From Thiothrix litoralis (GTDB lineage: Bacteria; Pseudomonadota; Gammaproteobacteria; Thiotrichales; Thiotrichaceae), in NCBI RefSeq assembly GCF_017901135.1, contig NZ_CP072801.1, forward strand, positions 1,054,001 through 1,118,000: DNA of 64,000 nucleotides, written 5' to 3'. This document shows positions 19,650-32,444 of the stretch, one piece after another. Position 1 is the stretch's first letter; every line of letters starts with the position of its first letter. A model generated the notes under the pieces. The model saw only the letters and a list, made by a program, of their open reading frames with translations, had not been told where the DNA came from and did no database searches. A program made the translations under genes and the position numbers.

Positions 19650-19826
19650 ATCCGCGTTTTCCTTTGTCATAACTTGTACCTTACCTATACGGCTGAGTAT
19701 GCGTTATGGATGTAGGAAATTGCTAAAAAGCGAATCTTTTGTGGGGTTATCTTCGCAAATGAGCCATAAACAAGGCGCTGTCAAACCGCTATACTCCTTG
19801 CTCTCTCATCATTGTGCAGGACTGGC

Positions 19827-22568
19827 ATGGCTATCAAGAAAACCGAACTCTACCGCTCCCTGTGGGAAAGCTGCGATGTGTTGCGCGGCAGCATGGACGC
19901 TTCCCAATACAAGGATTACATCCTCACCTTGTTGTTTGTGAAATACGTATCCGACAAGGCGGGGCAGGCAGATTCGTTGATTGATGTGCCGGAAGGGGCT
20001 TCCTTCGCCGATATGGTCAAGCTCAAGGGCAAGCCCCATATTGGCGAGGATGTGCAGAAGGTCATCGACAAGCTCGCTGAGGAAAACCACCTCAAGCGCG
20101 TTATTAATAACGCCGACTTCAACAACCCCGACAAGTTGGGCAGCGGTAAGGACATGATCGACCGCCTGAGCAAGCTGATCGGTATTTTTGAAGGCTTGGT
20201 ATTGGGTGGCAACCGCGCTACCGATGACGATTTGCTCGGTGATGCGTATGAATACCTGATGCGCCACTTTGCGGTGCAGTCCGGCAAGAGCAAGGGGCAA
20301 TTCTATACACCGTCCGAAGTGTCGCAGGTGTTGGCCAAGATTATCGGCATTACGCCACATACGACTCAGGACAAAACCGTGTATGACCCGACTTGCGGCT
20401 CAGGCTCTTTGTTGCTGAAAGTGGCTGATCAAGCTCCGAATGGGCTGACGCTGTATGGGCAGGAAAATGACAACGCCACCACCGCGTTGGCGAAGATGAA
20501 CATGATCCTGCATGAAAATGCCGATGCTGACATCCAGCAGGGCAATACCTTAGCGAATCCGCTGTTTTTGACATCAGCCGATACGCTGGAAACCTTCGAT
20601 TTCGTGGTGGCGAATCCGCCGTTTTCCAACAAGCAGTGGACTAACGGGGTGAATGTCGAGGAAGACCCGTTCGGGCGCTTTGAGTATGGCGTGCCACCTT
20701 CCAAAAACGGCGATTATGCGTTTCTGCTGCACATCCTCAAATCCATGAAAAGCACAGGAAAGGCGGCGGTGATCTTGCCGCATGGCGTGTTGTTCCGGGG
20801 TAATGCCGAGGCGGATATTCGCCAAAATCTGATTCGGCAGGGCTATATCAAGGGCATTATCGGTTTGCCTGCCAACCTGTTTTATGGCACGGGGATTCCG
20901 GCCTGCATTATTGTGCTGGACAAGGAAGATGCCCACGCCCGCAAAGGCATTTTCATGGTGGATGCCAGCAAGGGCTTTATCAAGGACGGCAACAAGAACC
21001 GCCTGCGTAGTCAGGATATTCACCAGATGGTGGATGTGTTCACCAAGCAATTAGAAGTGGCGCGGTATAGCCGCATGGTGACGTTGGCGGAGATTGCGGG
21101 GAATGGCTATAACCTGAATATTCCGCGTTACATTGATGCTTCCGAGCCGGAAGACATTCATGATCTTGACGCGCATTTGAACGGCGGTATCCCGCAGCGT
21201 GATCTGGATTTGCTGGAACATTATTGGCGGCAATTCCCGAGCTTGCGCAAACAGCTTTTTCAGGCGGATGCCCAACGCCCGACCTATTTCCAGAGCCAGT
21301 GTGCTGCCAAGGATTTTAAGCGCACGATGCTGGCGGGCGAGGAGTATCAGGCATTTGCGGATCAGGCGATGCAGCGTTTCACGGCATGGCGGGAGCGGCA
21401 TGTGGAGGGTTTGAAAGCCTTGTCGCAGGGGGTCAAGCCTAAAGACAAAATCCGTGAATTGTCCGAAGATTTATTGCTGACGTTTACGGGTGCGCCGTTG
21501 CTGGACAAGTACGCGGTTTACCAGATTTTGATGGATTACTGGGCGGAAACCTTCCAAGACGATGTGTACATGCTTGCGCTAGAAGGCTGGTCGCCGCCTG
21601 CATTGGTACGTCTGGTGCGTAAAGATGATAAGGATAAAGATGTCGAAAAGCCGGATTTGGTGGTAGGCAGCGGTAAAAGTGCGCAAAAGTTCAAGATGGA
21701 CTTTATCGCGCCTGCGTTAGTGATTGAGCATTATTTTGCGGCTGAACAGGCGGCGCTGGATGCCTTGCAACAGGTGCAGGATGATGCGACGCAAGCCCTC
21801 ACTGAGCATCAGGAGGAGCATGGCGGGGAAGACGGCGTATTGAAGGATGTCAGCAATAAAGCCGAGGCTGAAAAAGAGCTGGCGGATACTGAGGATTTGG
21901 CGTGGAAAGCTTTCGACAAAGCGGGTTTTGCGCAGTACGACAGCCAGCGTAAAGCCTTGGATGTGTTGGAAAGCCGCATCCGTGCGCTGGATGATGAGCC
22001 GGTGCTGGCGGACTTCAAAAATGCCAAGGGCAAAATTGCCGTCAAGGATGTGAAAGAGCGGCTGACGGATAGCTACACTCCGGCGGAAAATCGTGTGCTG
22101 GATGATTATCTGCGGAAACTTGCTGAGGCAGCAACGGCGCGTAAAACCTTGAAGCAGCAGCGTGAAGACTGGCAAACCTTGTTCGAGATGCACCGGATTT
22201 CGCACCCTTCCGCCGAGTATGTCGCCGAGATTGAAATCATTGAAACGTGGCTGACATTGTTGGAAGCGGAGGGGCAAGCTAAAAAAGCGGTCAAAGAGGC
22301 GCAGGAGCAGCTCAACCTGCAAGTGCTGGAGCAATACGGCAAGCTGGACGAGTTTGATATGAAGGTGCTGATGGTCGATAAGAAATGGCTGGCAACGCTG
22401 GAGGCGCGGGTACGCTCTGACATCGAGCGCATGATTCAGCAATTCGCCAACCGCCTGAAGCAACTGCACGAGCGTTACGCGCAACCGTTGCCGACGTTGG
22501 AACAACAAACCGCCGCACTCAGTGCTACGGTTGCTAAACACTTGCAAGCGATGGGGTTGAAGGCATGA
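19827..22568 (+). CDS. hsdM: type I restriction-modification DNA methyltransferase subunit
   Basis: The protein has 913 residues from the ATG at 19827 (MAIKKTELYRSLWESCDVLR). The N-terminal helical domain is followed by the SAM motif DPTCGSGSLLL at 187-197 and the adenine-N6 catalytic NPPF at 263-266, then a target-interacting region. The C-terminal 400 residues, rich in charged helices, are longer than in EcoKI HsdM but occur in a known long subgroup. It methylates the site recognised by HsdS and forms the M2S core. It is the first gene of the plus-strand hsdM-fic-hsdS unit. With hsdS disrupted downstream, site-specific activity is doubtful. Confidence 0.95.
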   Translation: MAIKKTELYRSLWESCDVLRGSMDASQYKDYILTLLFVKYVSDKAGQADSLIDVPEGASFADMVKLKGKPHIGEDVQKVIDKLAEENHLKRVINNADFNNPDKLGSGKDMIDRLSKLIGIFEGLVLGGNRATDDDLLGDAYEYLMRHFAVQSGKSKGQFYTPSEVSQVLAKIIGITPHTTQDKTVYDPTCGSGSLLLKVADQAPNGLTLYGQENDNATTALAKMNMILHENADADIQQGNTLANPLFLTSADTLETFDFVVANPPFSNKQWTNGVNVEEDPFGRFEYGVPPSKNGDYAFLLHILKSMKSTGKAAVILPHGVLFRGNAEADIRQNLIRQGYIKGIIGLPANLFYGTGIPACIIVLDKEDAHARKGIFMVDASKGFIKDGNKNRLRSQDIHQMVDVFTKQLEVARYSRMVTLAEIAGNGYNLNIPRYIDASEPEDIHDLDAHLNGGIPQRDLDLLEHYWRQFPSLRKQLFQADAQRPTYFQSQCAAKDFKRTMLAGEEYQAFADQAMQRFTAWRERHVEGLKALSQGVKPKDKIRELSEDLLLTFTGAPLLDKYAVYQILMDYWAETFQDDVYMLALEGWSPPALVRLVRKDDKDKDVEKPDLVVGSGKSAQKFKMDFIAPALVIEHYFAAEQAALDALQQVQDDATQALTEHQEEHGGEDGVLKDVSNKAEAEKELADTEDLAWKAFDKAGFAQYDSQRKALDVLESRIRALDDEPVLADFKNAKGKIAVKDVKERLTDSYTPAENRVLDDYLRKLAEAATARKTLKQQREDWQTLFEMHRISHPSAEYVAEIEIIETWLTLLEAEGQAKKAVKEAQEQLNLQVLEQYGKLDEFDMKVLMVDKKWLATLEARVRSDIERMIQQFANRLKQLHERYAQPLPTLEQQTAALSATVAKHLQAMGLKA

Positions 22569-22665: not shown

Positions 22666-23832
22666 ATGATCGAACGCACTACTGGACGGTATCACACCAG
22701 TATTATTGGTGGAGAAGCCGTCAATGCTTTTGTACCGTCCCCATTGCCACCACAACCACCCTTAGAACTGGCGGGGGCGCGTCAACGCTTACTGGAACAA
22801 GCTACCCATGCTTTAGGGCAACTCGATAGCATTACCACCTTACTACCGAACCCCCATCTTTTTTTGTATAGCTATGTGCGGCGCGAAGCAGTGTTATCGT
22901 CCCAGATTGAAGGCACACAGTCCTCTCTGTCTGACTTAATGTTATTTGAACTGGAGGAATCACCCGGTGTGCCGCTGGATGATGTTCAAGAAGTCAGTCA
23001 TTACGTCGCGGCACTCGAACATGGCATGACGCGGCTTGGTGAGGGATTTCCCTTGTGCAATCGTCTGTTACGTGAAATGCACGAAAAGCTTATGCAGCAA
23101 GCGCGGGGTCGTGAAAAGCTACCCGGTGAGTTTCGGCAAAGCCAAAACTGGATTGGTGGCACTCGACCGGGTAATGCCCGTTTTGTCCCGCCACCGCCGC
23201 ATGAGCTGGAAAGTTGTATGGCAGCACTGGAACAGTTTTTTCATGCCGAAAACGATGGGTTGCCAACCTTGTTACGGGCAGCGCTGGCGCATGTGCAATT
23301 TGAAACCATCCACCCTTTTCTGGATGGTAATGGTCGTCTGGGAAGGCTGTTGATTGCCATGTTATTGCATCACGGCGGCTTGCTCAGCCAACCCCTACTG
23401 TATTTGAGCCTGTATTTTAAAACTCACCGTAGTTTGTATTACGAGCGACTTGATCGGGTGCGTAGTCATGGCGAATGGGAGGCGTGGGTCGATTTCTTTC
23501 TGGAAGGTGTCGTTACCACCGCAAGAGGTGCTGTCAACACTGCCAAGTGCCTCGACCAATGCTTTGCCCAAGATTGGGAACGGGTGCATCAGAGTGGCTC
23601 AGCCAGTGTTAGCCATGCACCTTTGCGGGTGTTGACCAGCTTACGTAATCGTCCTTTAAGCAATATCAAACAATTGTCAGCCGCCAGTGGGCTAAGTTTT
23701 CCGACGACCACTAAAGCGGTTAATAGCCTGATTCAGCATGGCATTGTGGAAGAATTAACGGGGCAACGGCGCAATCGGGTGTTTGTCTACGCTGAATACC
23801 TGCGGCTGCTAAACGAAGGGGGCGACGCATGA
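22666..23832 (+). CDS. Fic-domain AMPylase-like protein
   Basis: The 388-residue protein has the full Fic catalytic loop HPFLDGNGRLGR (His216) and the flap region with PPPPHEL. An N-terminal inhibitory motif of the (S/T)xxxE(G/N) type, SSQIEG at 78-83, would make it a self-inhibited (class II-like) Fic protein. A C-terminal winged-helix segment (about 320-385: PLSNIKQLSAASGLSFPTTT) suggests DNA binding or autoregulation. Fic enzymes transfer AMP to target hydroxyl groups; cargo genes of this type are common inside type I restriction operons, though their role there is not known. Its stop overlaps the next small frame (ATGA). Confidence 0.93.
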   Translation: MIERTTGRYHTSIIGGEAVNAFVPSPLPPQPPLELAGARQRLLEQATHALGQLDSITTLLPNPHLFLYSYVRREAVLSSQIEGTQSSLSDLMLFELEESPGVPLDDVQEVSHYVAALEHGMTRLGEGFPLCNRLLREMHEKLMQQARGREKLPGEFRQSQNWIGGTRPGNARFVPPPPHELESCMAALEQFFHAENDGLPTLLRAALAHVQFETIHPFLDGNGRLGRLLIAMLLHHGGLLSQPLLYLSLYFKTHRSLYYERLDRVRSHGEWEAWVDFFLEGVVTTARGAVNTAKCLDQCFAQDWERVHQSGSASVSHAPLRVLTSLRNRPLSNIKQLSAASGLSFPTTTKAVNSLIQHGIVEELTGQRRNRVFVYAEYLRLLNEGGDA

Positions 23833-24011
23833 AACTAAACGCTACTGCATTCCCAATTCAAGACGCACTGCGTCTCGAATTGAGTGAATCATATTCTCTA
23901 CTGCCGGAGATAAGTCAGACACTGCCTGACCGATCTTTTATGGTTATAAAGATTCAACAGACAGTGCCTGTTACATCTTTTCCTAGACTGACAGGGGGAA
24001 GCCATGAGTGA
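23829..24011 (+). CDS. small unrecognised frame between fic and hsdS
   Basis: This is a 60-codon frame whose ATG overlaps the fic stop by ATGA and whose end overlaps the hsdS start by 8 bases. I do not recognise the product. The same DNA holds a 27-bp near-palindrome and a pair of direct repeats, so the stretch may be regulatory rather than coding. No conserved motif, signal peptide or membrane helix is apparent. The coupling to both neighbours is the only argument for translation. Confidence 0.3.
   Translation: MKLNATAFPIQDALRLELSESYSLLPEISQTLPDRSFMVIKIQQTVPVTSFPRLTGGSHE
23855..23881. promoter_or_regulatory. 27-bp near-perfect palindrome between fic and hsdS
   Basis: The arms AATTCAAGACGCA (23855-23867) and TGCGTCTCGAATT (23869-23881) flank a single C and pair at 12 of 13 positions. 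It could be an operator for the Fic winged helix or an RNA hairpin controlling hsdS; neither is shown. Confidence 0.5.
23916..23981. repeat. imperfect 24-bp direct repeat upstream of hsdS
   Basis: Copies at 23916-23939 and 23958-23981 share CAGACA(C/G)TGCCTG, four variable bases, then ATCTTTT, with a 42-bp period (four helical turns). They lie 23-88 bp before the hsdS ATG, suggesting protein binding on one face of the helix. Confidence 0.45.
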
Positions 24012-24505
24012 AATCAAAGTTCCCGCAGGCTACAAACAAACCGAAGTCGGCATTATCCCCGAAGACTGGGATGTTAAAACGTTAGGTAATATTACGACCT
24101 TGCAGCGTGGCTTTGATTTGCCAAGTCGGTTAAGAAAGGTTGGGCAGGTACCAATTATTTCTTCTGCTGGTGTTTCTGGTTTTCATAATAAAGCGATGGC
24201 TAAAGCTAATGGAGTTGTCACCGGACGATATGGAACGATTGGTGAAACCTTTTTTGTCGAAGAAGACTTTTGGCCATTAAATACCACTCTATATGTTAGT
24301 GATTTTAAGGATAATGATCCGCTATTTATTTATTTTTTGTTGAAGACCATTGATTTTCAATCCCATAGTGGAAAAAGTGGCGTGCCTGGTGTTAATCGAA
24401 ATGACTTGCACGAGTTAATTATTACTTCGCCGCCAACCAAAGAAGAACAAACCGCTATCGCTACCGTTCTTTCTGATGTCGATGCCCTGATTGCGTCACT
24501 CAATG
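24004..24505 (+). pseudogene. hsdS: hsdS, 5' part (interrupted by IS66-family element)
   Basis: The ATG at 24004 follows AGGGGGAAG. The fragment encodes VGIIPEDWDVKTLGNI, a first target-recognition domain with ITLQRG-like entry and YGTIGETFFVEEDFWPLNTT, and the central helix start PPTKEEQTAIATVLSDVDALIASLN. These are typical of type I specificity subunits. The coding sequence stops at the IS left end (24506). Removing the element and one copy of the 9-bp duplication restores the frame exactly into IAKKRDIKTATMQQLLTGKQ at 26073 onward. HsdS chooses the DNA sequence methylated and cut, so this insertion should silence both activities. Confidence 0.93.
24497..24505. repeat. target-site duplication, left copy
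   Basis: CACTCAATG, repeated at 26064-26072 on the other side of the IS66-family element. IS66 members usually give 8 bp; one base may be a chance match. Confidence 0.9.
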
Positions 24506-26063
24506 GTAACTGTTCACGGAGCAGCCCCCTTCAATACTTGCGGAGGGGGAATAGGCAAACGCACCGTCACCGGCTTTTTAGCCAATGCCTGCTGACACGC
24601 TTGGCGGATAATTCGGTAAGCGCTGATACCTAGGCGTTTGCAGGTTTCCACGATAGTCAGTATTAACGGGCGGAATTGATCACCTCGGAAAGATTGGCTA
24701 AAAAAGCTGGTCTTACGCCAGATGACATAGGGGCGGATAGCCCGTTCGGCAGCATTGTTGGTCAGAGGAACACCGGAATGACGCAAAAATGTCCATAACA
24801 TCAGGTCATCATCCCGTAAGCGTTGGCACTGGTTGGCGGTTTTAGTCGGCTTATCAGGATGTTGTGCTTGACGTAAGCCGCTACCTGCTACCAATGTCTG
24901 GCGGAAGGCTTCGCGGAGTTTATCCATGCGTTGCCGGTACAACCTGTCCGAGTAAGCACCTGCGAGCTTGCGGTTATGCAAGTGGACAATCAGGCGTGCC
25001 AGACGCAGCAAACGCTTCCCTAAGATGCCTGCACGCCCGTAACGTTGTGCTATTTTTTTGAACTTACGGATAATGTGCGCCCAGCACAGTTGCCGTCGTT
25101 CATTGGGGTGGTGATTATAGCCGCCGTGCTGGTCGGTCACGAGTACGCCATTGAATTTTCCCAGCAATTCGTCCGCTGCACCTTTGCCGCGTGAGTAATG
25201 CGTCATGAAGTACACCACCTGTGGCGAACACATCACCCATAACCATTCACGTTCGCGCCCACGGTAGTGACTGGTTTCATCCGCGTTTACCACCGGGCTG
25301 CTACGCACTGCATCACCCGCCTGAGCATATAAGGGTGCTAACCAACGGCTGACGGGGGCAGTAGCCTCACTGATCGCACCGCTACTGAAGGATAACTGCC
25401 ATTGTTCTTCCAGCAGTAACTGGATTTGCCGCGTGGACAGGCGGCACGCCCCGTTCATCAGGGTGATCCAACTGATCAAGCCAGCACCCATCTGCCCGCT
25501 GGGGATGTCTTCGGGTAACTCGGCTACCTGACGTTTCCCGCAGCAACTACACGTACCCGCATACAGGCGGTGTTCCGTTACTTGATAAGCAACTTCCGGT
25601 AGGTCAAATACCTGATGACGCTGGCTCGGCGTGGTTTCCAGCACCAGATGACCACCACAACGGCAACAGCCTTCGGGATAGTAATGCTGGATAGCATCCA
25701 GGCGTGATTCCTCCACCAAGGTGCGTTCATGTTTGCTGTGTCCTGGCTGACCGCCGCGTTTTAACGGGCTTTTCGGTTTGCGCTCGCGTTGGGCGCGTTG
25801 TTCGGGCGTGTCACGTGACGGGGGGTTAGAGGAGGTGGCGGAGGAGTCATTCAGGCGTTCTTTCAGTTCTGTCAGTTCCGCTTCCAGTTGTTTTACCCGT
25901 GCCTGCAACGCAACCACCAACGTCAGCAGATCACGGTTAAGCTGCTGGGAGGTGGCCAAATCGGTTGGCAACGCAATATCAGTAAAATCGGTGGTGATCG
26001 TTAGCTCGTTCATCTTTCAAGCATAGCTCAGACTCTGGCAGTTGCAAGCCCGTGAACAGTTAC
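24506..26063 (-). mobile_element. IS66-family insertion sequence in hsdS
   Basis: The element is 1558 bp, with terminal inverted repeats GTAACTGTTCACGG at the left and its exact complement CCGTGAACAGTTAC at the right, ending in the GTAA typical of the family. It is flanked by the direct repeat CACTCAATG. It holds a single gene, the TnpC-type transposase, on the minus strand, and no tnpA or tnpB accessory genes, as in the ISBst12-like branch. Intact ends, perfect inverted repeats and an undisturbed duplication point to a recent insertion. Confidence 0.95.
24514..26013 (-). CDS. IS66-family transposase (TnpC type)
   Basis: This is a 499-residue transposase. It has an N-terminal leucine-zipper-like coiled coil (VVALQARVKQLEAELTELKE), a zinc-binding segment (CCRCGG and CSCC near 118-160), and a DDE catalytic domain with VVNADETSHYRG, LVTDQHGGYN and the Glu of NNAAERAIRP. 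The C-terminal IS66 tail follows. It appears intact and full length for the family. It is transcribed opposite to hsdS and occupies almost the whole element. Confidence 0.96.
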   Translation of the reverse strand: MNELTITTDFTDIALPTDLATSQQLNRDLLTLVVALQARVKQLEAELTELKERLNDSSATSSNPPSRDTPEQRAQRERKPKSPLKRGGQPGHSKHERTLVEESRLDAIQHYYPEGCCRCGGHLVLETTPSQRHQVFDLPEVAYQVTEHRLYAGTCSCCGKRQVAELPEDIPSGQMGAGLISWITLMNGACRLSTRQIQLLLEEQWQLSFSSGAISEATAPVSRWLAPLYAQAGDAVRSSPVVNADETSHYRGREREWLWVMCSPQVVYFMTHYSRGKGAADELLGKFNGVLVTDQHGGYNHHPNERRQLCWAHIIRKFKKIAQRYGRAGILGKRLLRLARLIVHLHNRKLAGAYSDRLYRQRMDKLREAFRQTLVAGSGLRQAQHPDKPTKTANQCQRLRDDDLMLWTFLRHSGVPLTNNAAERAIRPYVIWRKTSFFSQSFRGDQFRPLILTIVETCKRLGISAYRIIRQACQQALAKKPVTVRLPIPPPQVLKGAAP

Positions 26064-26072
26064 CACTCAATG
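26064..26072. repeat. target-site duplication, right copy
   Basis: CACTCAATG, identical to 24497-24505. Confidence 0.9.
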
Positions 26073-26872
26073 CCCAGATTGCCAAAAAACGCGATATAAA
26101 AACCGCTACCATGCAGCAGCTTTTGACGGGCAAGCAACGGTTGGCGGGGTTTGGTGAAGGCAAAGGGATGAAGGCGAGCGAGTTGGGGGAAATACCGGAG
26201 GATTGGGAGGTTTGCAAGCTAAAAGCTATTTGCTCAATGAAAAGTGGAATGACAATTACTGCTGAAGCCATTAGTGATAATGCAGATTATCCTTGTTATG
26301 GCGGTAATGGTTTGCGTGGTTTTACAAAACAATATACCCATGAGGGACATTATGCGCTTATCGGGCGGCAAGGCGCATTATGCGGTAATATTATAAGTGT
26401 TACAGGTAAATTCTTTGCATCAGAACATGCCATTGTCGTAACACCCACATTAAACACAAATATTAAATGGCTTGCTTTTGTTCTGGATGATATGAATTTA
26501 AATCAGTATTCCGAATCTTCAGCACAGCCCGGTTTATCTGTTGAAAAACTGCTTGAATTTCAAATTATTGTTCCGCTAAAAGAAGAGCAGGGGGCGATTG
26601 CGGGGGTGTTGTCGGCGATGGATGAGGACATCGCGGCATTGGAGCAGCGGCTGGCGAAGACCAAGGCGATGAAGCAGGGGATGATGCAGGAGTTGCTGAC
26701 GGGGAGGACGCGGTTGGCAGTAGGTTTACCCGAAGTATCACCGGATGAACTGTACGAACAAACAAAGCGAGAGAATTTTGTGCATAGTTCCCGTTTGGAA
26801 GGGATTGATATACCAAGTAAACAAACGCCCGCTTCATTGGCTGATGTACTGAAAAAATACAGTGTTGATTAA
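26073..26872 (+). pseudogene. hsdS: hsdS, 3' part with YhfG/FicA-like tail
   Basis: It continues hsdS after the IS: the first conserved coiled helix (AKKRDIKTATMQQLLTGKQR), a second domain beginning LGEIPEDWEVCKL with PCYGGNGLRGF and YALIGRQGALCGNI, then the second conserved helix ending KQGMMQELLTGRTRL, where most HsdS proteins stop. Here about 45 more residues follow: LYEQTKRENFVHSSRLEG, IDIP, then ASLADVLKKY. This tail aligns by eye with E. coli YhfG (RNRNFQASRRLEGVEIP), the antitoxin partner of Fic, and contains an SxxxEG motif. A Fic gene lies upstream in the same unit. The fusion is read directly; the functional link is inference. Confidence 0.85.
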
Positions 26873-26889: not shown

Positions 26890-27418
26890 GTGATAACTCG
26901 CCAAATTGCTTTATTATTGAAATCAATGGAAGTTTATTCCAGACAGGGCTACCGACTGAGCTTGCTGGAAGTGCAAAAACTGGCGTATTTCCTGCAAGTG
27001 GCGGGTGAACCGTTGCACCTGAATTACACCAAACATTTGTACGGCTCTTATGCGGATAACCTCAACCATATGCTGCAACGCATGGAGGGACACTTCATCC
27101 GGGGTTACGGCGAACCGCAGCAAGGATTCACAAATCTACCTGCTGGCGGGTGCTGTGCAACAAGCGGAGCAATTCCTTGCCGACGATGCCGAAGCCGCGC
27201 AGCGTTTACAACAGGTTAGCCAATTGATTGAAGGTTTTGAAACGCCTTACGGCATGGAGTTATTAGCGACTGTCCATTGGGTAGCTAACGAAAACAAAAC
27301 CGCTGATAATAAGGTAATTCAGCAAGGCGTTACCGATTGGAATGCCCGTAAAGCCAAATTGATGCAGCCTAAACACATTAATAAAGCGTTGATGCGGCTG
27401 AAAACACAGGCATGGTAA
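26890..27418 (+). pseudogene. DarG C-terminal-domain-like gene, frameshifted
   Basis: Frame one from the GTG at 26890 (with GGAAAGG upstream) encodes LLEVQKLAYFLQVAGEPLHL, LYGSYADNLNHMLQRMEGHF and IRGYGEP. Frame two, about 27110-27418, continues with SQIYLLAGAVQQAEQFLADD and LIEGFETPYGMELLATVHWV. Together they match the C-terminal domain of DarG, the antitoxin of DarTG (distantly Panacea/DUF4065-like), without the macrodomain. One base too many near 27117-27122 (CCGCAGCAAGG) breaks the frame. It lies 17 bp after the hsdS stop and so belongs to the restriction operon. Without the macrodomain it would not reverse ADP-ribosylation; a binding or adaptor role is possible in intact relatives. Confidence 0.75.
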
Positions 27419-27425
27419 TAGTTCG

Positions 27426-28067
27426 TTATGGGACAAAAATATCATTTGGTAAGTTCGGATCGTTAATAAGTTGATCTCTAACTTTTTTAGCTTCATCCTC
27501 AGTCTTAAAAGGGCCAGTGCTTACTTGGTAATTGAGTTTTTTCTTTAAGGTAATTGGCTCTGAACGTGCCTTTAACCCTTTTGATTGCAGAAGGCTAATA
27601 AAGCGGTCAGCTTTGTTTTTACTTGATGTGACAATTACTTGTACCCAATATCCGCCAATGGTGTTGTCTGGGTTTTTTATTGTGGAGTCATAATAGACGT
27701 TTGGAAATAAGCTAATGATATATGGAACAATTCTGATTTTTAGTCGTTCTGTTTGCCAATTTTTGGGGATATATGTTTCTCCATCATAAGGAGAGAAAAC
27801 TGACCAGCCATTCTTATCTGTTGTGAGATTTATTTTATCGCCTGAATCTAGGTTTTCTGGTATTTCAATTTCAAATTGCCCATTATTCTTTGTTTCGTCA
27901 AATTGTCCAGTGTGAGAAATTGTTATTCTAACTCCGTCTAATGGTCTTTCTATGCCTTTACTATCAACTGCATATAAAACTCCTGAAAGAGTTTTGCTAT
28001 ATAAAATTTCAGGAAAAATAGAAATTAATAGTAAAATTGCTATTTTTGATGTTTTTTTAAAGTCCAT
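27426..28067 (-). CDS. secreted/membrane protein with carboxypeptidase-regulatory-like and SPOR-like domains
   Basis: The protein has 213 residues. The first 24 residues (IAILLLISIFPEILYSK) form a signal peptide or membrane anchor. Residues about 26-85 look like a carboxypeptidase-regulatory-type beta-sandwich (LSGVLYAVDSKG, LDGVRITISHTG, NNGQFEIEIP). Residues about 138-205 resemble a SPOR domain (GGYWVQVIVTSSKNKADRFI, LQSKGLKARSEP, YQVSTGPFKTEDEA), a peptidoglycan-binding fold. It starts 7 bp after the SEFIR gene on the same strand, so the two form an operon. The DNA is much more AT-rich than its surroundings, a sign of transfer. No homologue with known function is recognised; a cell-envelope partner of the SEFIR protein is inferred. 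Confidence 0.75.
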   Translation of the reverse strand: MDFKKTSKIAILLLISIFPEILYSKTLSGVLYAVDSKGIERPLDGVRITISHTGQFDETKNNGQFEIEIPENLDSGDKINLTTDKNGWSVFSPYDGETYIPKNWQTERLKIRIVPYIISLFPNVYYDSTIKNPDNTIGGYWVQVIVTSSKNKADRFISLLQSKGLKARSEPITLKKKLNYQVSTGPFKTEDEAKKVRDQLINDPNLPNDIFVP

Positions 28068-28074
28068 AAATTGA

Positions 28075-29136
28075 TCACTCTGGTTTTAATTTAATAGGTG
28101 CGTCTTTTTTTCCAAATGCTATTTCAATGGTTTCGCTATGGTATCCTAGTTTTGCAAAGCTAACAATTTCTTTATTTTTCGGGTTGTTCATAATATTTTT
28201 AAATGAAAAATAACCATTGGTCTTTGTTGTCATGTTTTCATCACGGATTGTAACAACTACTCCATCAAGATATTGCTTTGTAATGGCATCATAAACATAA
28301 CCTCCTATTTCATTTGGAACGGAATCAGTTGTTCTATTCGAGCTATTACTAGGATTTGATTCATAGTAGTTATTCTGAACTTGAATGCTGTCAATATTAT
28401 TATTGTTTTGATTTCCTTTAACCTCATTATTGGTTTGGTTCCCTACAATATTATTGCTTCCACTAATGATATTTCCATTTGCAGAAGGAGACTGAGGAGT
28501 GTCTATATTCTTTTTTCCTAAAAGATCAGGAATACTCGGTATTCCAGTTGTATATGCCAGTATTGTAATGATCGACGATATGACTGCGGCAATTTTTAAA
28601 TTTTTTGACATGATAAATTTGCGCTCTATTTTTTTAGGAACTGATCTTTCGCCTATAGGGTATCGTTTTAGTTTGCCTAATGGTTTTGCTGAATTTTTCG
28701 GTTGATTGGTTAGTACGCGATATAGTACTTCGTAGTCAGAGTTTAGTTTGTATGTTGATCCACTTTTCAATATCCATGGTACGTTATCAATGTTACCGGA
28801 TTCTGGAATTACTGGTATGAACTTAGTGTTCTGTTGAAATTGGTCATACAGTACTTGAGATATGATTGTTCCCTCAAAGTTAACACCTCTACCACTACTA
28901 GGATCTTCCCCATCGAAGCGTTTTAAGTAAATTGGTGTGCAAACAACCAAAACGAAGTGTGCTTGCTCAATCTGTTTTTTCATCCACCGCTGCCAGCCTT
29001 CGGGAGGTGCGCCGTTGACGTACTGATCAATGAAACAATCAATGCCATCATCACGTAGTTGCTCAGATAGCTCTAGTACAAACTGGCGATGCTCGTCAGA
29101 ATCGTGACTGTAGCTGATGAAAACTTTTGGTGACAT
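28075..29136 (-). CDS. membrane-anchored SEFIR-domain protein
   Basis: The protein has 353 residues. Residues about 2-145 are a SEFIR (TIR-like) domain: KVFISYSHDSDEHRQFVLEL, GIDCFIDQYVNGAPPEGWQR, AHFVLVVCTPIYLKRF and FEGTIISQVLYDQ. One hydrophobic segment follows at about 181-199. An Asn/Ser-rich linker (219-268) leads to a beta-sandwich (277-351: GGYVYDAITKQYLDGVVVTI, TKTNGYFSFKN) akin to the carboxypeptidase-regulatory domain. The same kind of domain opens the downstream protein. Bacterial SEFIR proteins have been shown to act in anti-phage immunity by NAD depletion. The gene is AT-rich and inserted between hsdS-darG-like and hsdR, opposite in direction, consistent with a transferred defence cassette. 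Confidence 0.85.
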   Translation of the reverse strand: MSPKVFISYSHDSDEHRQFVLELSEQLRDDGIDCFIDQYVNGAPPEGWQRWMKKQIEQAHFVLVVCTPIYLKRFDGEDPSSGRGVNFEGTIISQVLYDQFQQNTKFIPVIPESGNIDNVPWILKSGSTYKLNSDYEVLYRVLTNQPKNSAKPLGKLKRYPIGERSVPKKIERKFIMSKNLKIAAVISSIITILAYTTGIPSIPDLLGKKNIDTPQSPSANGNIISGSNNIVGNQTNNEVKGNQNNNNIDSIQVQNNYYESNPSNSSNRTTDSVPNEIGGYVYDAITKQYLDGVVVTIRDENMTTKTNGYFSFKNIMNNPKNKEIVSFAKLGYHSETIEIAFGKKDAPIKLKPE

Positions 29137-29279: not shown

Positions 29280-32200
29280 ATGAGTAACGTCAGTGACCGC
29301 GAGCGCATCACCCAAAACCGCGTCGTCCGTTTGTTTCAGGACAAACTCGGTTACGAGTACCTCGGCAATTGGGAAAAACGCGCCAACAACCGCAATATCG
29401 AACCCGACTACCTGAGCGCGTGGTTACGCAAGCAAAACGTCAGTGATGCCCTGATTGACAAAACCCTGCAAGAATTGGCGCGAGATAATGCCTTGGGGGA
29501 TGGCGACAATCTTTATACCCCCAATCAGACCTTGTACGGCTTGCTGCGTTATGGGGTAAAAATCAAGCCCGACCACAGTGAACACACCCGTACCATCCAC
29601 CTGATTGACTGGGAAAATCCCACCCATAACGATTTCGCCATAGCCGAAGAAGTCACGATTAGCGGCAAGTATGACAAGCGCCCCGATATTGTGCTGTACG
29701 TCAACGGTATCGCACTGGGCGTATTGGAGCTGAAACGCGCTACCGTGGGTGTGGCGGAAGGCATTGCGCAAAATCTGGATAACCAAAGCAGCACCTTCAT
29801 CCGCCCGTTTTTCACCACAATGCAGTTGGTGATGGCGGGCAATGACAGCGAAGGCTTGCGTTACGGCACCATTGAAACCAAATCCAAATATTATCTGGAA
29901 TGGCGAGAAGAAAACCCCGCGTACAACCCGAAAACCGACAGCAAAGACCAACAATACTTGCCCCAATACAACTGCGGTACGGTAGAAAGCCCACTGGATT
30001 GCGCTCTGTTACGCATTGCCAGCAAACACCGTGTGCTGGAGCTCATCCACGACTTTGTAGTGTTTGACGCTGGCGTGAAAAAGCTGTGTCGCCATAACCA
30101 ATATTTCGGCCTCAAAGCGGCGCAAGCCCGTATACACCAACGCGAGGGCGGCATTATCTGGCACACGCAAGGCTCAGGCAAAAGCCTGACCATGGTGTGG
30201 CTGGCGAAGTGGCTGCGCGAAAATGTTGATGGCAGCCGCGTGTTGATCATTACCGACCGCACCGAGCTGGACGAACAAATCGAAGGTGTGTTCAAGGGGG
30301 TCGACGAACACATTTACCGCTGCAACAGTGGGCGCGACATGCTGGGTGTGTTGCACCAGCCGATTGAATGGTTGATGTGCTCCCTGATCCACAAATTCGG
30401 CGCGGGCGAAGAGGGCAGCGAACAACAGACCAGCACCTTCATCAAGGAACTGCTGAGCAGTATCCCCAAGGACTTTTCCGCCAAAGGCAATTTGTTTGTA
30501 TTTGTGGATGAATGCCACCGTACCCAGTCCGGCAAGCTGCACAAGGCGATGCAAAAGCTGTTGCCGAATGCCTTGTTTGTGGGCTTTACCGGCACGCCGT
30601 TGCTGAAAGATGACAAGCAAACCAGTATCGAAACGTTTGGCTCTTACATTCACACCTACAAATTTGATCAAGCGGTCAATGACAACGTGGTGCTGGATTT
30701 ATGCTACGAAGCGCGGGACATTAGCCAATACGTGGGTAATAAGGCGAAGATCGACCTTTTTTTTGCGGAAAAAACCAAAAATCTCTCCAACATTGCCAAG
30801 GCGCGGGTCAAGCAAAAATGGCTGACCATGCAAAGCGTGCTCTCCAGCAAATCCCGCTTGCAGCAAATTGTGAATGACATTGTGCTGGATATGACCACCA
30901 AGCCACGTTTGGAGAGTCAGCACGGTAATGCCATGTTGGTGTGTGCAGATGTGTACCAAGCTTGCAAGGTGTATGAGTTGCTTGCGGCAACGGATGCCAG
31001 TCTGGCGGGTAAATCCGCGATTATCACCAGTTACCAACCCACGGCTGCCAGTATTAAAGGCGAGGGTGGTGACGAGGGCGACACCGAAAACCTGCACAAA
31101 TACAAGATTTACCGCAAGATGTTGGCAACGTATTTCAATCAACCCGAAGATGAAGCCGTCAAACGCGTGGAGGAGTTCGAGAAAAAGGTCAAAAAGCAGT
31201 TCAAGGAACAACCTGCACAAATGCGCCTGCTGATTGTGGTGGATAAACTGCTGACAGGTTTCGACGCGCCATCGGCCACCTACTTGTACATCGACAAGAA
31301 AATGCAAAACCACGGGCTGTTTCAAGCTATTTGCCGCGTCAATCGTCTGGATGGTGAGGAAAAAACCTACGGCTACATCATCGATTACAAAGACCTGTTC
31401 AACAGCATCAAAGACGCAATGGGTGATTACACGGGTGGCGCATTTGCCGACTATGACAGTACCGATATACAAGACTTGCTGAAAAACCGCCTGAAACAAG
31501 CCAAGCTGAAACTGGAAGAAACCCGCGAAGCGATTAAAGCCCTGTGTGAACCCGTTGCGTTGCCGCGAGATACCAATGATTACCTGGCTTACTTCGTTGC
31601 CAGCAATCCGCTGAACCGTGACGAAGCCGAACAGAACGAAGCCAAACGCCTCGCATTCTACAAACTGAGCGGTGCTTATCTACGGGCGTATGCCGAGATT
31701 GCCGGGGAGTTGCAGGAGGTGGGCTATTCCGCCAGTGAAGCAGAAAAAATCCGGGTGGAAGTGCGCCACTATCACGACGCAAGGGAGGCGGTGAAACTTG
31801 CCAGTGGTGATTATAAGGATGCCAAAGACCTCGAACCCGCGATGCGTCACATCTTCGACCAGTTTATCCGCGCCGATGATAGCGATATGTTGGCAGACTT
31901 CGGCGACAAAGGTTTGATTGAAGTGTTGGTTGATAGTGGCATTGCCGCGCTGGAAAGCCGTTTGCCGGAAAGCGTGCGCAAAAGCGAAACAGCCGTGGCG
32001 GAAACCATCGAAAACAACATCCGCAAAAATATTAGCGATACTCGCAGCGTCAACCCGGCTTACTACGATAATTTGTCTGACTTGCTGGATGCCCTGATCC
32101 AACAACGTCAGACCGAAGTGCAGGAATACCAGCAATATCTGGAAAAGCTCAAGGCATTGGCAGAACAAATGCGCCAAAGCCAAATACCGCAAGATTATCC

Positions 32201-32444
32201 CACTACCCTCAAAACCCAAGCCATGCGCAACCTCTACGCGAATCTGGAGCGTGACGAAAGCCTGACGCTTGCCGTGCATGAAACCGTGATGAGCTACAAA
32301 AAAGCAGGCTGGACAGGCAATAATGCCGCCGCCCACATGAAAGAAAAGCGGGTTCGTCAGGCAGTCACGCGGGTAGTAGGCGAGGACTCTGCTACAGTAG
32401 AGGACTTGTTAAAGCTAATCAAAGCGCAGTATGAATACCACTAG
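29280..32444 (+). CDS. hsdR: type I restriction enzyme, motor/endonuclease subunit
   Basis: The 1054-residue protein has an N-terminal PD-(D/E)XK nuclease with Asp136 (RPDIVLYVNG) and Glu150-x-Lys152 (LELKRA). A superfamily 2 translocase follows, with Walker A TQGSGKS (about 296-302), the DECH box at 410-413 (FVFVDECHRTQSG), FVGFTGTPLL, LLIVVDKLLTGFDAP and AICRVNR. The C-terminal helical region binds the methylase core. All catalytic motifs are intact. It is separated from hsdM/hsdS by the SEFIR operon and needs its own promoter in the 143-bp gap. With hsdS interrupted the complex probably cannot cut. The last 14 bases overlap the metallopeptidase gene. Confidence 0.96.
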   Translation: MSNVSDRERITQNRVVRLFQDKLGYEYLGNWEKRANNRNIEPDYLSAWLRKQNVSDALIDKTLQELARDNALGDGDNLYTPNQTLYGLLRYGVKIKPDHSEHTRTIHLIDWENPTHNDFAIAEEVTISGKYDKRPDIVLYVNGIALGVLELKRATVGVAEGIAQNLDNQSSTFIRPFFTTMQLVMAGNDSEGLRYGTIETKSKYYLEWREENPAYNPKTDSKDQQYLPQYNCGTVESPLDCALLRIASKHRVLELIHDFVVFDAGVKKLCRHNQYFGLKAAQARIHQREGGIIWHTQGSGKSLTMVWLAKWLRENVDGSRVLIITDRTELDEQIEGVFKGVDEHIYRCNSGRDMLGVLHQPIEWLMCSLIHKFGAGEEGSEQQTSTFIKELLSSIPKDFSAKGNLFVFVDECHRTQSGKLHKAMQKLLPNALFVGFTGTPLLKDDKQTSIETFGSYIHTYKFDQAVNDNVVLDLCYEARDISQYVGNKAKIDLFFAEKTKNLSNIAKARVKQKWLTMQSVLSSKSRLQQIVNDIVLDMTTKPRLESQHGNAMLVCADVYQACKVYELLAATDASLAGKSAIITSYQPTAASIKGEGGDEGDTENLHKYKIYRKMLATYFNQPEDEAVKRVEEFEKKVKKQFKEQPAQMRLLIVVDKLLTGFDAPSATYLYIDKKMQNHGLFQAICRVNRLDGEEKTYGYIIDYKDLFNSIKDAMGDYTGGAFADYDSTDIQDLLKNRLKQAKLKLEETREAIKALCEPVALPRDTNDYLAYFVASNPLNRDEAEQNEAKRLAFYKLSGAYLRAYAEIAGELQEVGYSASEAEKIRVEVRHYHDAREAVKLASGDYKDAKDLEPAMRHIFDQFIRADDSDMLADFGDKGLIEVLVDSGIAALESRLPESVRKSETAVAETIENNIRKNISDTRSVNPAYYDNLSDLLDALIQQRQTEVQEYQQYLEKLKALAEQMRQSQIPQDYPTTLKTQAMRNLYANLERDESLTLAVHETVMSYKKAGWTGNNAAAHMKEKRVRQAVTRVVGEDSATVEDLLKLIKAQYEYH

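Follow-up and report, generated by a model that had tools for sequence, protein, structure and literature searches.

A gene pair encoding a predicted membrane-anchored SEFIR protein and a predicted secreted SPOR-domain protein inside a type I restriction locus of Thiothrix litoralis

The window, a stretch of 64,000 nucleotides from the genome of Thiothrix litoralis, holds two adjacent genes, here called A and B, in the midst of a type I restriction locus (Table 1). B lies downstream of A with a gap of 7 bp, and the two form a predicted operon. Their GC content (0.36 for A and 0.33 for B, against 0.51 for the window) and their orientation set them apart from hsdM, the Fic gene, hsdS and hsdR, all of which are found on the opposite strand, the only exception among the neighbors being the IS66-family transposase gene. 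The initial annotation, made from the sequence alone, had described an AT-rich pair that is opposite in direction to its neighbors and splits hsdR from the other hsd genes, and with the exception of the transposase this is what was observed.

Table 1. Features of the A-B pair and of its surroundings, in positions of the window
Feature	Position	Strand	Remarks
Gene A	28075..29136	minus	intact ORF of 353 aa; SEFIR - TM - Asn-rich linker - transthyretin-like sandwich; predicted to lie in the inner membrane
SEFIR domain of A	28714..29130	minus	residues 3-141; includes conserved Glu88
Predicted membrane helix of A	28558..28614	minus	hydropathy, residues 175-193; model helix 178-197; N-terminus inside
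Disordered Asn-rich linker of A	28327..28527	minus	residues 204-270; pLDDT <50; contains IISGSNNIV
C-terminal transthyretin-like/CarboxypepD_reg sandwich of A	28078..28311	minus	residues 276-353; predicted periplasmic
Gene B	27426..28067	minus	intact ORF, 213 aa; predicted secreted; signal peptide - sandwich - SPOR
Predicted signal peptide of B	27996..28067	minus	residues 1-24; hydrophobic N-terminus
Beta-sandwich of B	27711..27992	minus	residues 26-119; holds the recurrent pattern W-x(2,4)-P-x-x-G-E-x(3)-P (GWSVFSPYDGETYIP)
SPOR domain of B	27465..27653	minus	residues 139-201; Q143 kept, Arg positions are Gln and Ser
hsdM	19812..22568	plus	on the other side of the pair from hsdR
Fic protein, SoFic type	22666-23832	plus	PADLOC E=2.2e-119; between hsdM and hsdS
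hsdS, interrupted	24004-26872	plus	Methylase_S fragments on either side of the IS66-family transposase gene
IS66-family transposase gene	24514-26013	minus	inserted in hsdS
DarG-like remnant, frameshifted	26890-27418		directly after hsdS; profile positions 161-235, then 230-328
hsdR	29280..32444	plus	parted by the pair from the remaining hsd operon

The domain order proposed for the first gene, a SEFIR domain followed by one helix, an Asn-rich linker and a sandwich, is one on which Pfam, PADLOC and the AlphaFold model compared by Foldseek agree. Pfam recognized the SEFIR domain (PF08357, E=1.4e-17, residues 3-141) and, under its gathering cut-off, a CarbopepD_reg_2 domain (E=3.2e-6, residues 277-345), and the PADLOC bSEFIR profile (PDLC03957) matched residues 2-263 over positions 36-292 of its 412 with E=1.7e-50. 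The single hydrophobic helix, at about residues 175-197, is flanked by five Lys/Arg residues on its N side versus one on its C side, which predicts an N-in/C-out topology with the SEFIR domain in the cytoplasm and the sandwich in the periplasm. In the AlphaFold model, obtained from a shallow alignment (pLDDT 73.5), the SEFIR domain matches ACT1/IL-17R and prokaryotic SEFIR structures, including 5y8e and 9ot1, and the sandwich matches 5aq0, a transthyretin-like domain from carboxypeptidase D (TMt 0.77, E=4.2e-5). Glu88, kept in 85 of 88 aligned sequences, may be catalytic by likeness to TIR NADases. No close homologue of A was found in the viral contigs searched, and none of the plasmid SEFIR/TIR matches listed spans more than about 54% of A. 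The genome encodes two more SEFIR proteins (L002 and L003, near 3994041 and 308412), both above 900 aa and resembling SEFIR-NTPase proteins that lack a membrane helix; SEFIR proteins like these are common in the genus. A general A type among the SEFIR proteins of these genomes was considered and rejected, since the majority are large and carry no membrane helix behind the SEFIR domain.

Gene B was likewise read as proposed, as a secreted protein with a sandwich and a SPOR domain. The SPOR domain was recognized by Pfam (PF05036, E=3.3e-11, residues 138-200, 43.8 bits for a cut-off of 21), a hydrophobic N-terminal segment is present in every B homologue read, and the match to CarbopepD_reg_2 is very weak (E=0.02). 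The model of B, also from a shallow alignment, has a pLDDT of 85.6, mostly above 90 in the sandwich, and in Foldseek, where no match of B fell under an E of 0.001, its SPOR domain resembles that of RlpA (TMt 0.70-0.71), and the transthyretin-like domain 5aq0 is again the match for its sandwich (TMt 0.64). The SPOR and sandwich folds on which the initial annotation had staked its reading were therefore both found by structure prediction. It had further regarded the two sandwiches as related, and this holds at the level of the fold, since both lead to 5aq0, whereas their sequences show weak kinship (hhalign probability 66%, E=5.7e-5). In the SPOR domain of RlpA, Q270 and R309 are among the residues in contact with glycan, and R311 shares their basic patch (PMC6895207). 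An alignment of B to RlpA and FtsN places Q143 at the glycan-contact Gln and shows Gln and Ser at the two Arg positions, so that binding to the wall is plausible but less certain for the window copy; in most relatives the first of these positions holds Lys or Arg. No homologue of B was detectable in the viral contigs and plasmids searched.

The surroundings of the pair are partly decayed. As hsdS is broken by the IS66 element, the restriction system is probably impaired. The frameshifted remnant that follows it represents the C-terminal part of DarG, the macrodomain part being absent within that stretch. Counts of promoters and terminators in the region were no higher than in shuffled sequence, and thus a promoter belonging to the pair cannot be claimed. 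In a search for an empty site, the hsdR of genome G052 proved 97% identical, but the DNA upstream of it is unrelated from just before the start codon, which makes the insertion boundaries of the pair unreadable.

Relatives of the pair were sought in 63 genomes of the order, in a class sample of 369 genomes and in a phylum sample of 398. B searched alone against one genome per species (84,980 species) found no relative, and relatives surfaced only in nearer genomes. Within the order B matched 12 of the 63 genomes, six of them through the SPOR domain only, and a profile that included SPOR (A1) gathered division-type SPOR proteins and was therefore of no use in locating pairs; sandwich-only profiles (A3 and A7) were used instead. 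With these the sandwich of B was found in eight genomes of the order, seven of them convincing. Beyond the order it is rare, with clear matches in three genomes of the class sample, two from the window's own family, and in the window's own genome alone in the phylum sample. The gene family is nearly restricted to one bacterial family. At seven of the eight assessable loci, the window included, the sandwich of B lies behind an upstream membrane gene, and in six of these the two genes range from overlapping by 4 bp to standing 15 bp apart.

What varies among these seven pairs is the head of the first protein and the tail of the second. The window pair joins SEFIR-TM-sandwich to sandwich-SPOR, an exact combination found in this genome only. 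The G046 pair has TIR-TM-sandwich with sandwich-SPOR (gap of 6 bp), the G054 pair TIR-TM-sandwich with sandwich-TPR (3 bp; the positive-inside bias of its A protein is not clear), the G020 pair CHAT-TM-sandwich with sandwich-TPR (about 253 bp), and the G052 pair 2TM-sandwich with sandwich-SPOR (15 bp). In a second pair of G046 and in G056, the upstream protein has one TM helix and a small extracytoplasmic domain, and its gene overlaps that of sandwich-SPOR by 4 bp. The heads are thus SEFIR in one pair, TIR in two, a CHAT protease in one and none recognized in three. The eighth locus, in G038, holds a lone B, and outside the order a sandwich-TPR protein was found (G235) whose upstream gene is lost at a contig end. 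Since SEFIR, TIR and CHAT are all known types of cell-killing or immune effector, their exchange argues that the head is an effector. As TPR can replace SPOR, wall binding is no general property of the partner, and since the unit is broader than SEFIR plus SPOR, wall sensing through SPOR cannot be its sole mode.

Several of the pairs reside near defense genes. In G046 one pair forms part of a co-directional hsdM-hsdS-hsdR-A-B-PDC-S11 series whose hsdR belongs to a family other than that of the window, in G052 it follows mad5-mad6-mad7-mad8 by 0.5 kb, and in G056 a PDC-S47-type gene lies about 1.2 kb away. Neither inspection nor the genes checked revealed a recognized defense neighbor for the other G046 pair (G046a) and the G054 pair, and the contig of G020 is too short for its surroundings to be read. 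Restriction or MADS loci are therefore present at three of the six loci with readable surroundings; if 5% of the genome lay near such loci, an assumed figure, at least three of six would arise with a chance of about 0.002, which is no more than suggestive. The GC content of the pair is below that of its flanks in the window, in both G046 pairs, in G052 and in G056, but not in G054, and most pairs, being AT-rich, were probably acquired horizontally. The pairing pointed out by the initial annotation thus stands as far as recurrence and repeated residence at restriction or MADS loci are concerned, but not for the exact SEFIR and SPOR pairing, given the variable heads and tails. At L222:257-15328 the series mad5-mad6-mad7-mad8, 2TM-sandwich and sandwich-SPOR is followed by a second 2TM gene, in which SPAIN-x-SGDVN motifs are repeated, and the set after the mad genes is a possible MADS accessory module.

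The recurrence of the pairs with swapped effector heads suggests, short of proof, that they sense infection at the cell envelope. Tentatively, and with rather less than even confidence, we hypothesize that A and B constitute a two-gene, membrane-spanning abortive-infection module, in which a membrane-tethered effector is under the control of an envelope-side partner that senses damage to the wall. A would span the inner membrane, its SEFIR domain facing the cytoplasm and its transthyretin-like sandwich the periplasm. B would be exported into the periplasm as well, with a SPOR domain that could engage peptidoglycan and a sandwich that would meet the periplasmic part of A. The canonical target of SPOR domains is glycan strands stripped of their peptides, which are made by amidases, phage endolysins among them. 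An attack on the wall would then change the state or the position of B and cause A to cluster, and the clustered SEFIR domains would assemble, deplete NAD+ and arrest the cell. The domains, topology, export, operon, recurrence with exchanged heads and tails and residence at restriction or MADS loci are predictions from sequence and models, and from them we infer the contact between A and B, the trigger, the clustering, the NADase activity and the role in defense. A wider reading, which we regard as doubtful, is that these pairs are modular bacterial transmembrane immune receptors, in which a helix and a periplasmic sandwich would carry interchangeable cytoplasmic effectors (SEFIR, TIR, CHAT and possibly a pore-like 2TM head) and a dedicated secreted co-receptor would read the wall (SPOR) or other envelope cues (TPR), serving restriction and MADS loci as an alarm for envelope breach.

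The same anatomy would be expected if B were a restraint rather than a sensor, tying A to the wall or masking its sandwich, in which case the loss, degradation or antitoxin-like displacement of B would free the effector. Varied heads under one kind of partner suit a generic restraint, as do the tight spacing and overlap of the genes; yet the effector gene comes first, while antitoxins are often encoded first, and a lone SEFIR-TM-sandwich protein with no partner downstream exists in Burkholderiaceae (L135), although it may be inactive or self-restrained. We consider a restraint unlikely. L135, having the architecture of A without a partner, is also consistent with A being an ordinary single-gene defense protein of the bSEFIR type and B a functionally unlinked neighboring cell-wall gene. 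bSEFIR is a single-gene anti-phage SEFIR system from Bacillus, and the PADLOC profile covers the SEFIR head of A and the region that follows. Nevertheless, that profile stops short of the C-terminal sandwich of A, and a second, secreted gene follows here in a pairing that recurs, so that the locus departs from the single-gene arrangement; at seven of eight loci B homologues stand behind a gene whose membrane protein has an extracytoplasmic part, under unrelated heads and mostly at the close spacing described above, and an unlinked neighbor is consequently very unlikely.

A role outside defense, as a unit of envelope-homeostasis or cell-division signaling with the TIR-like domains as scaffolds, would agree with the usual part of SPOR domains in remodeling of the septal wall (PMC6895207), with the pairs that lack an effector head and with the two pairs (G046a and G054) found among housekeeping genes. 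The patchy distribution (seven convincing genomes of 63 in the order, only the own genome of 398), the low GC content, the restriction or MADS neighbors and the effector-type heads, a CHAT protease included, argue against it and make it quite unlikely. Highly improbable, in our judgment, is that the pair is mobile cargo or a decaying remnant whose present function is lost: the broken hsdS, the frameshifted DarG-like remnant and the loss of Arg from the SPOR domain would fit, but both ORFs are intact, the SEFIR core and Glu88 are kept, and the domains of A and B fold at good predicted confidence.

The sensing module that we favor resembles in its logic the Zorya system, a membrane complex whose periplasmic peptidoglycan-binding part controls a cytoplasmic effector against phages (PMC11890865). 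ZorAB is, however, a MotAB-like 5:2 motor driven by ions, its effectors are of the nuclease type and its peptidoglycan-binding fold is not the fold of B, and neither a ZorA/ZorB MotAB-like motor nor an OmpA-like peptidoglycan-binding domain was found in A or B by Pfam or PADLOC. In conflict systems centered on NTPases (STAND, MoxR ternary and GAP1-N2 systems), TIR, CHAT and peptidase heads are interchangeable and sensors variable, and some carry extracytoplasmic or wall-binding domains past a TM segment (PMC7159879, PMC8195603, PMC10907252). In contrast, A and B make up a minimal layout of two proteins, of which one is secreted; Pfam found no regulatory NTPase (STAND, MoxR or GTPase) in either, and the restriction subunit gene hsdR is the sole separate NTPase gene that adjoins the pair. 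B shares the SPOR fold and the conserved Gln with FtsN, DedD, DamX and RlpA, but has a signal peptide in place of a TM anchor or enzyme domain, an N-terminal sandwich, no Arg contact residues and an operon with an effector-type gene. TIR effectors of the Thoeris and CBASS type also differ, their partners being makers or sensors of a nucleotide signal and not a secreted SPOR protein. The initial annotation knew of no described system with this pairing, and likewise no description of a SEFIR or TIR protein with a SPOR partner was found in the text of 5.39 million open-access papers.

Characterized SEFIR, TIR and CHAT defense proteins sense infection mostly inside the cell. If the proposal is true, detection would shift to the periplasm through a membrane effector whose secreted partner binds the wall, and it would become directly testable whether NAD+-depleting immunity can be triggered when phage enzymes damage peptidoglycan. 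A would then also represent a membrane receptor in bacteria that is laid out like animal IL-17 receptors, with SEFIR on the inside and a beta-sandwich on the outside, and to the IL-17 receptor assembly with ACT1 (9ot1) its SEFIR domain is matched. The domain order is nonetheless reversed and the sandwich of another type, so that the likeness is an analogy only, with no evidence of common descent, and was probably reached independently.

Further support comes from the SEFIR-TM proteins of the order, of which those with a tail past the membrane (window, G030 and G041) are followed by a secreted partner in three of three cases, and those ending at the membrane (G040 and G045) in none of two. In G030 and G041 a short-tailed SEFIR-TM protein immediately precedes a secreted TPR protein and a similar short motif occurs in both, GSVITGSVGGSV and PIITGNGNKV in the A tails and AIIVTGKVAGNV and PVITGDNNQV in the partners. 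The stretch IISGSNNIV in the linker of the window protein (residues 223-231) resembles the motifs of the G041 pair and is of the same kind; the background of the motif pattern, which was drafted after the sequences had been seen, is 0.04 per 1000 aa. We read this as a possible theme in which effector tail and partner head bear matched modules, to which the partnerless L135 is a counter-example. SEFIR-TM genes from Leucothrix pacifica and a Thiothrix nivea MAG (L184:2854-3645 and L185:3398-4156, with L052 and L055 as the following genes) overlap or abut a secreted TPR gene, and similar VITG-type motifs occur in both partners. In a Rhodospirillales MAG (L127:3989-6722) a SEFIR protein ends in GGMAAGRDQTINF and the downstream TPR protein starts with GFAAGRDQNF; the two have in common a different short motif, AAGRDQ, possibly an adaptor of effector and partner.
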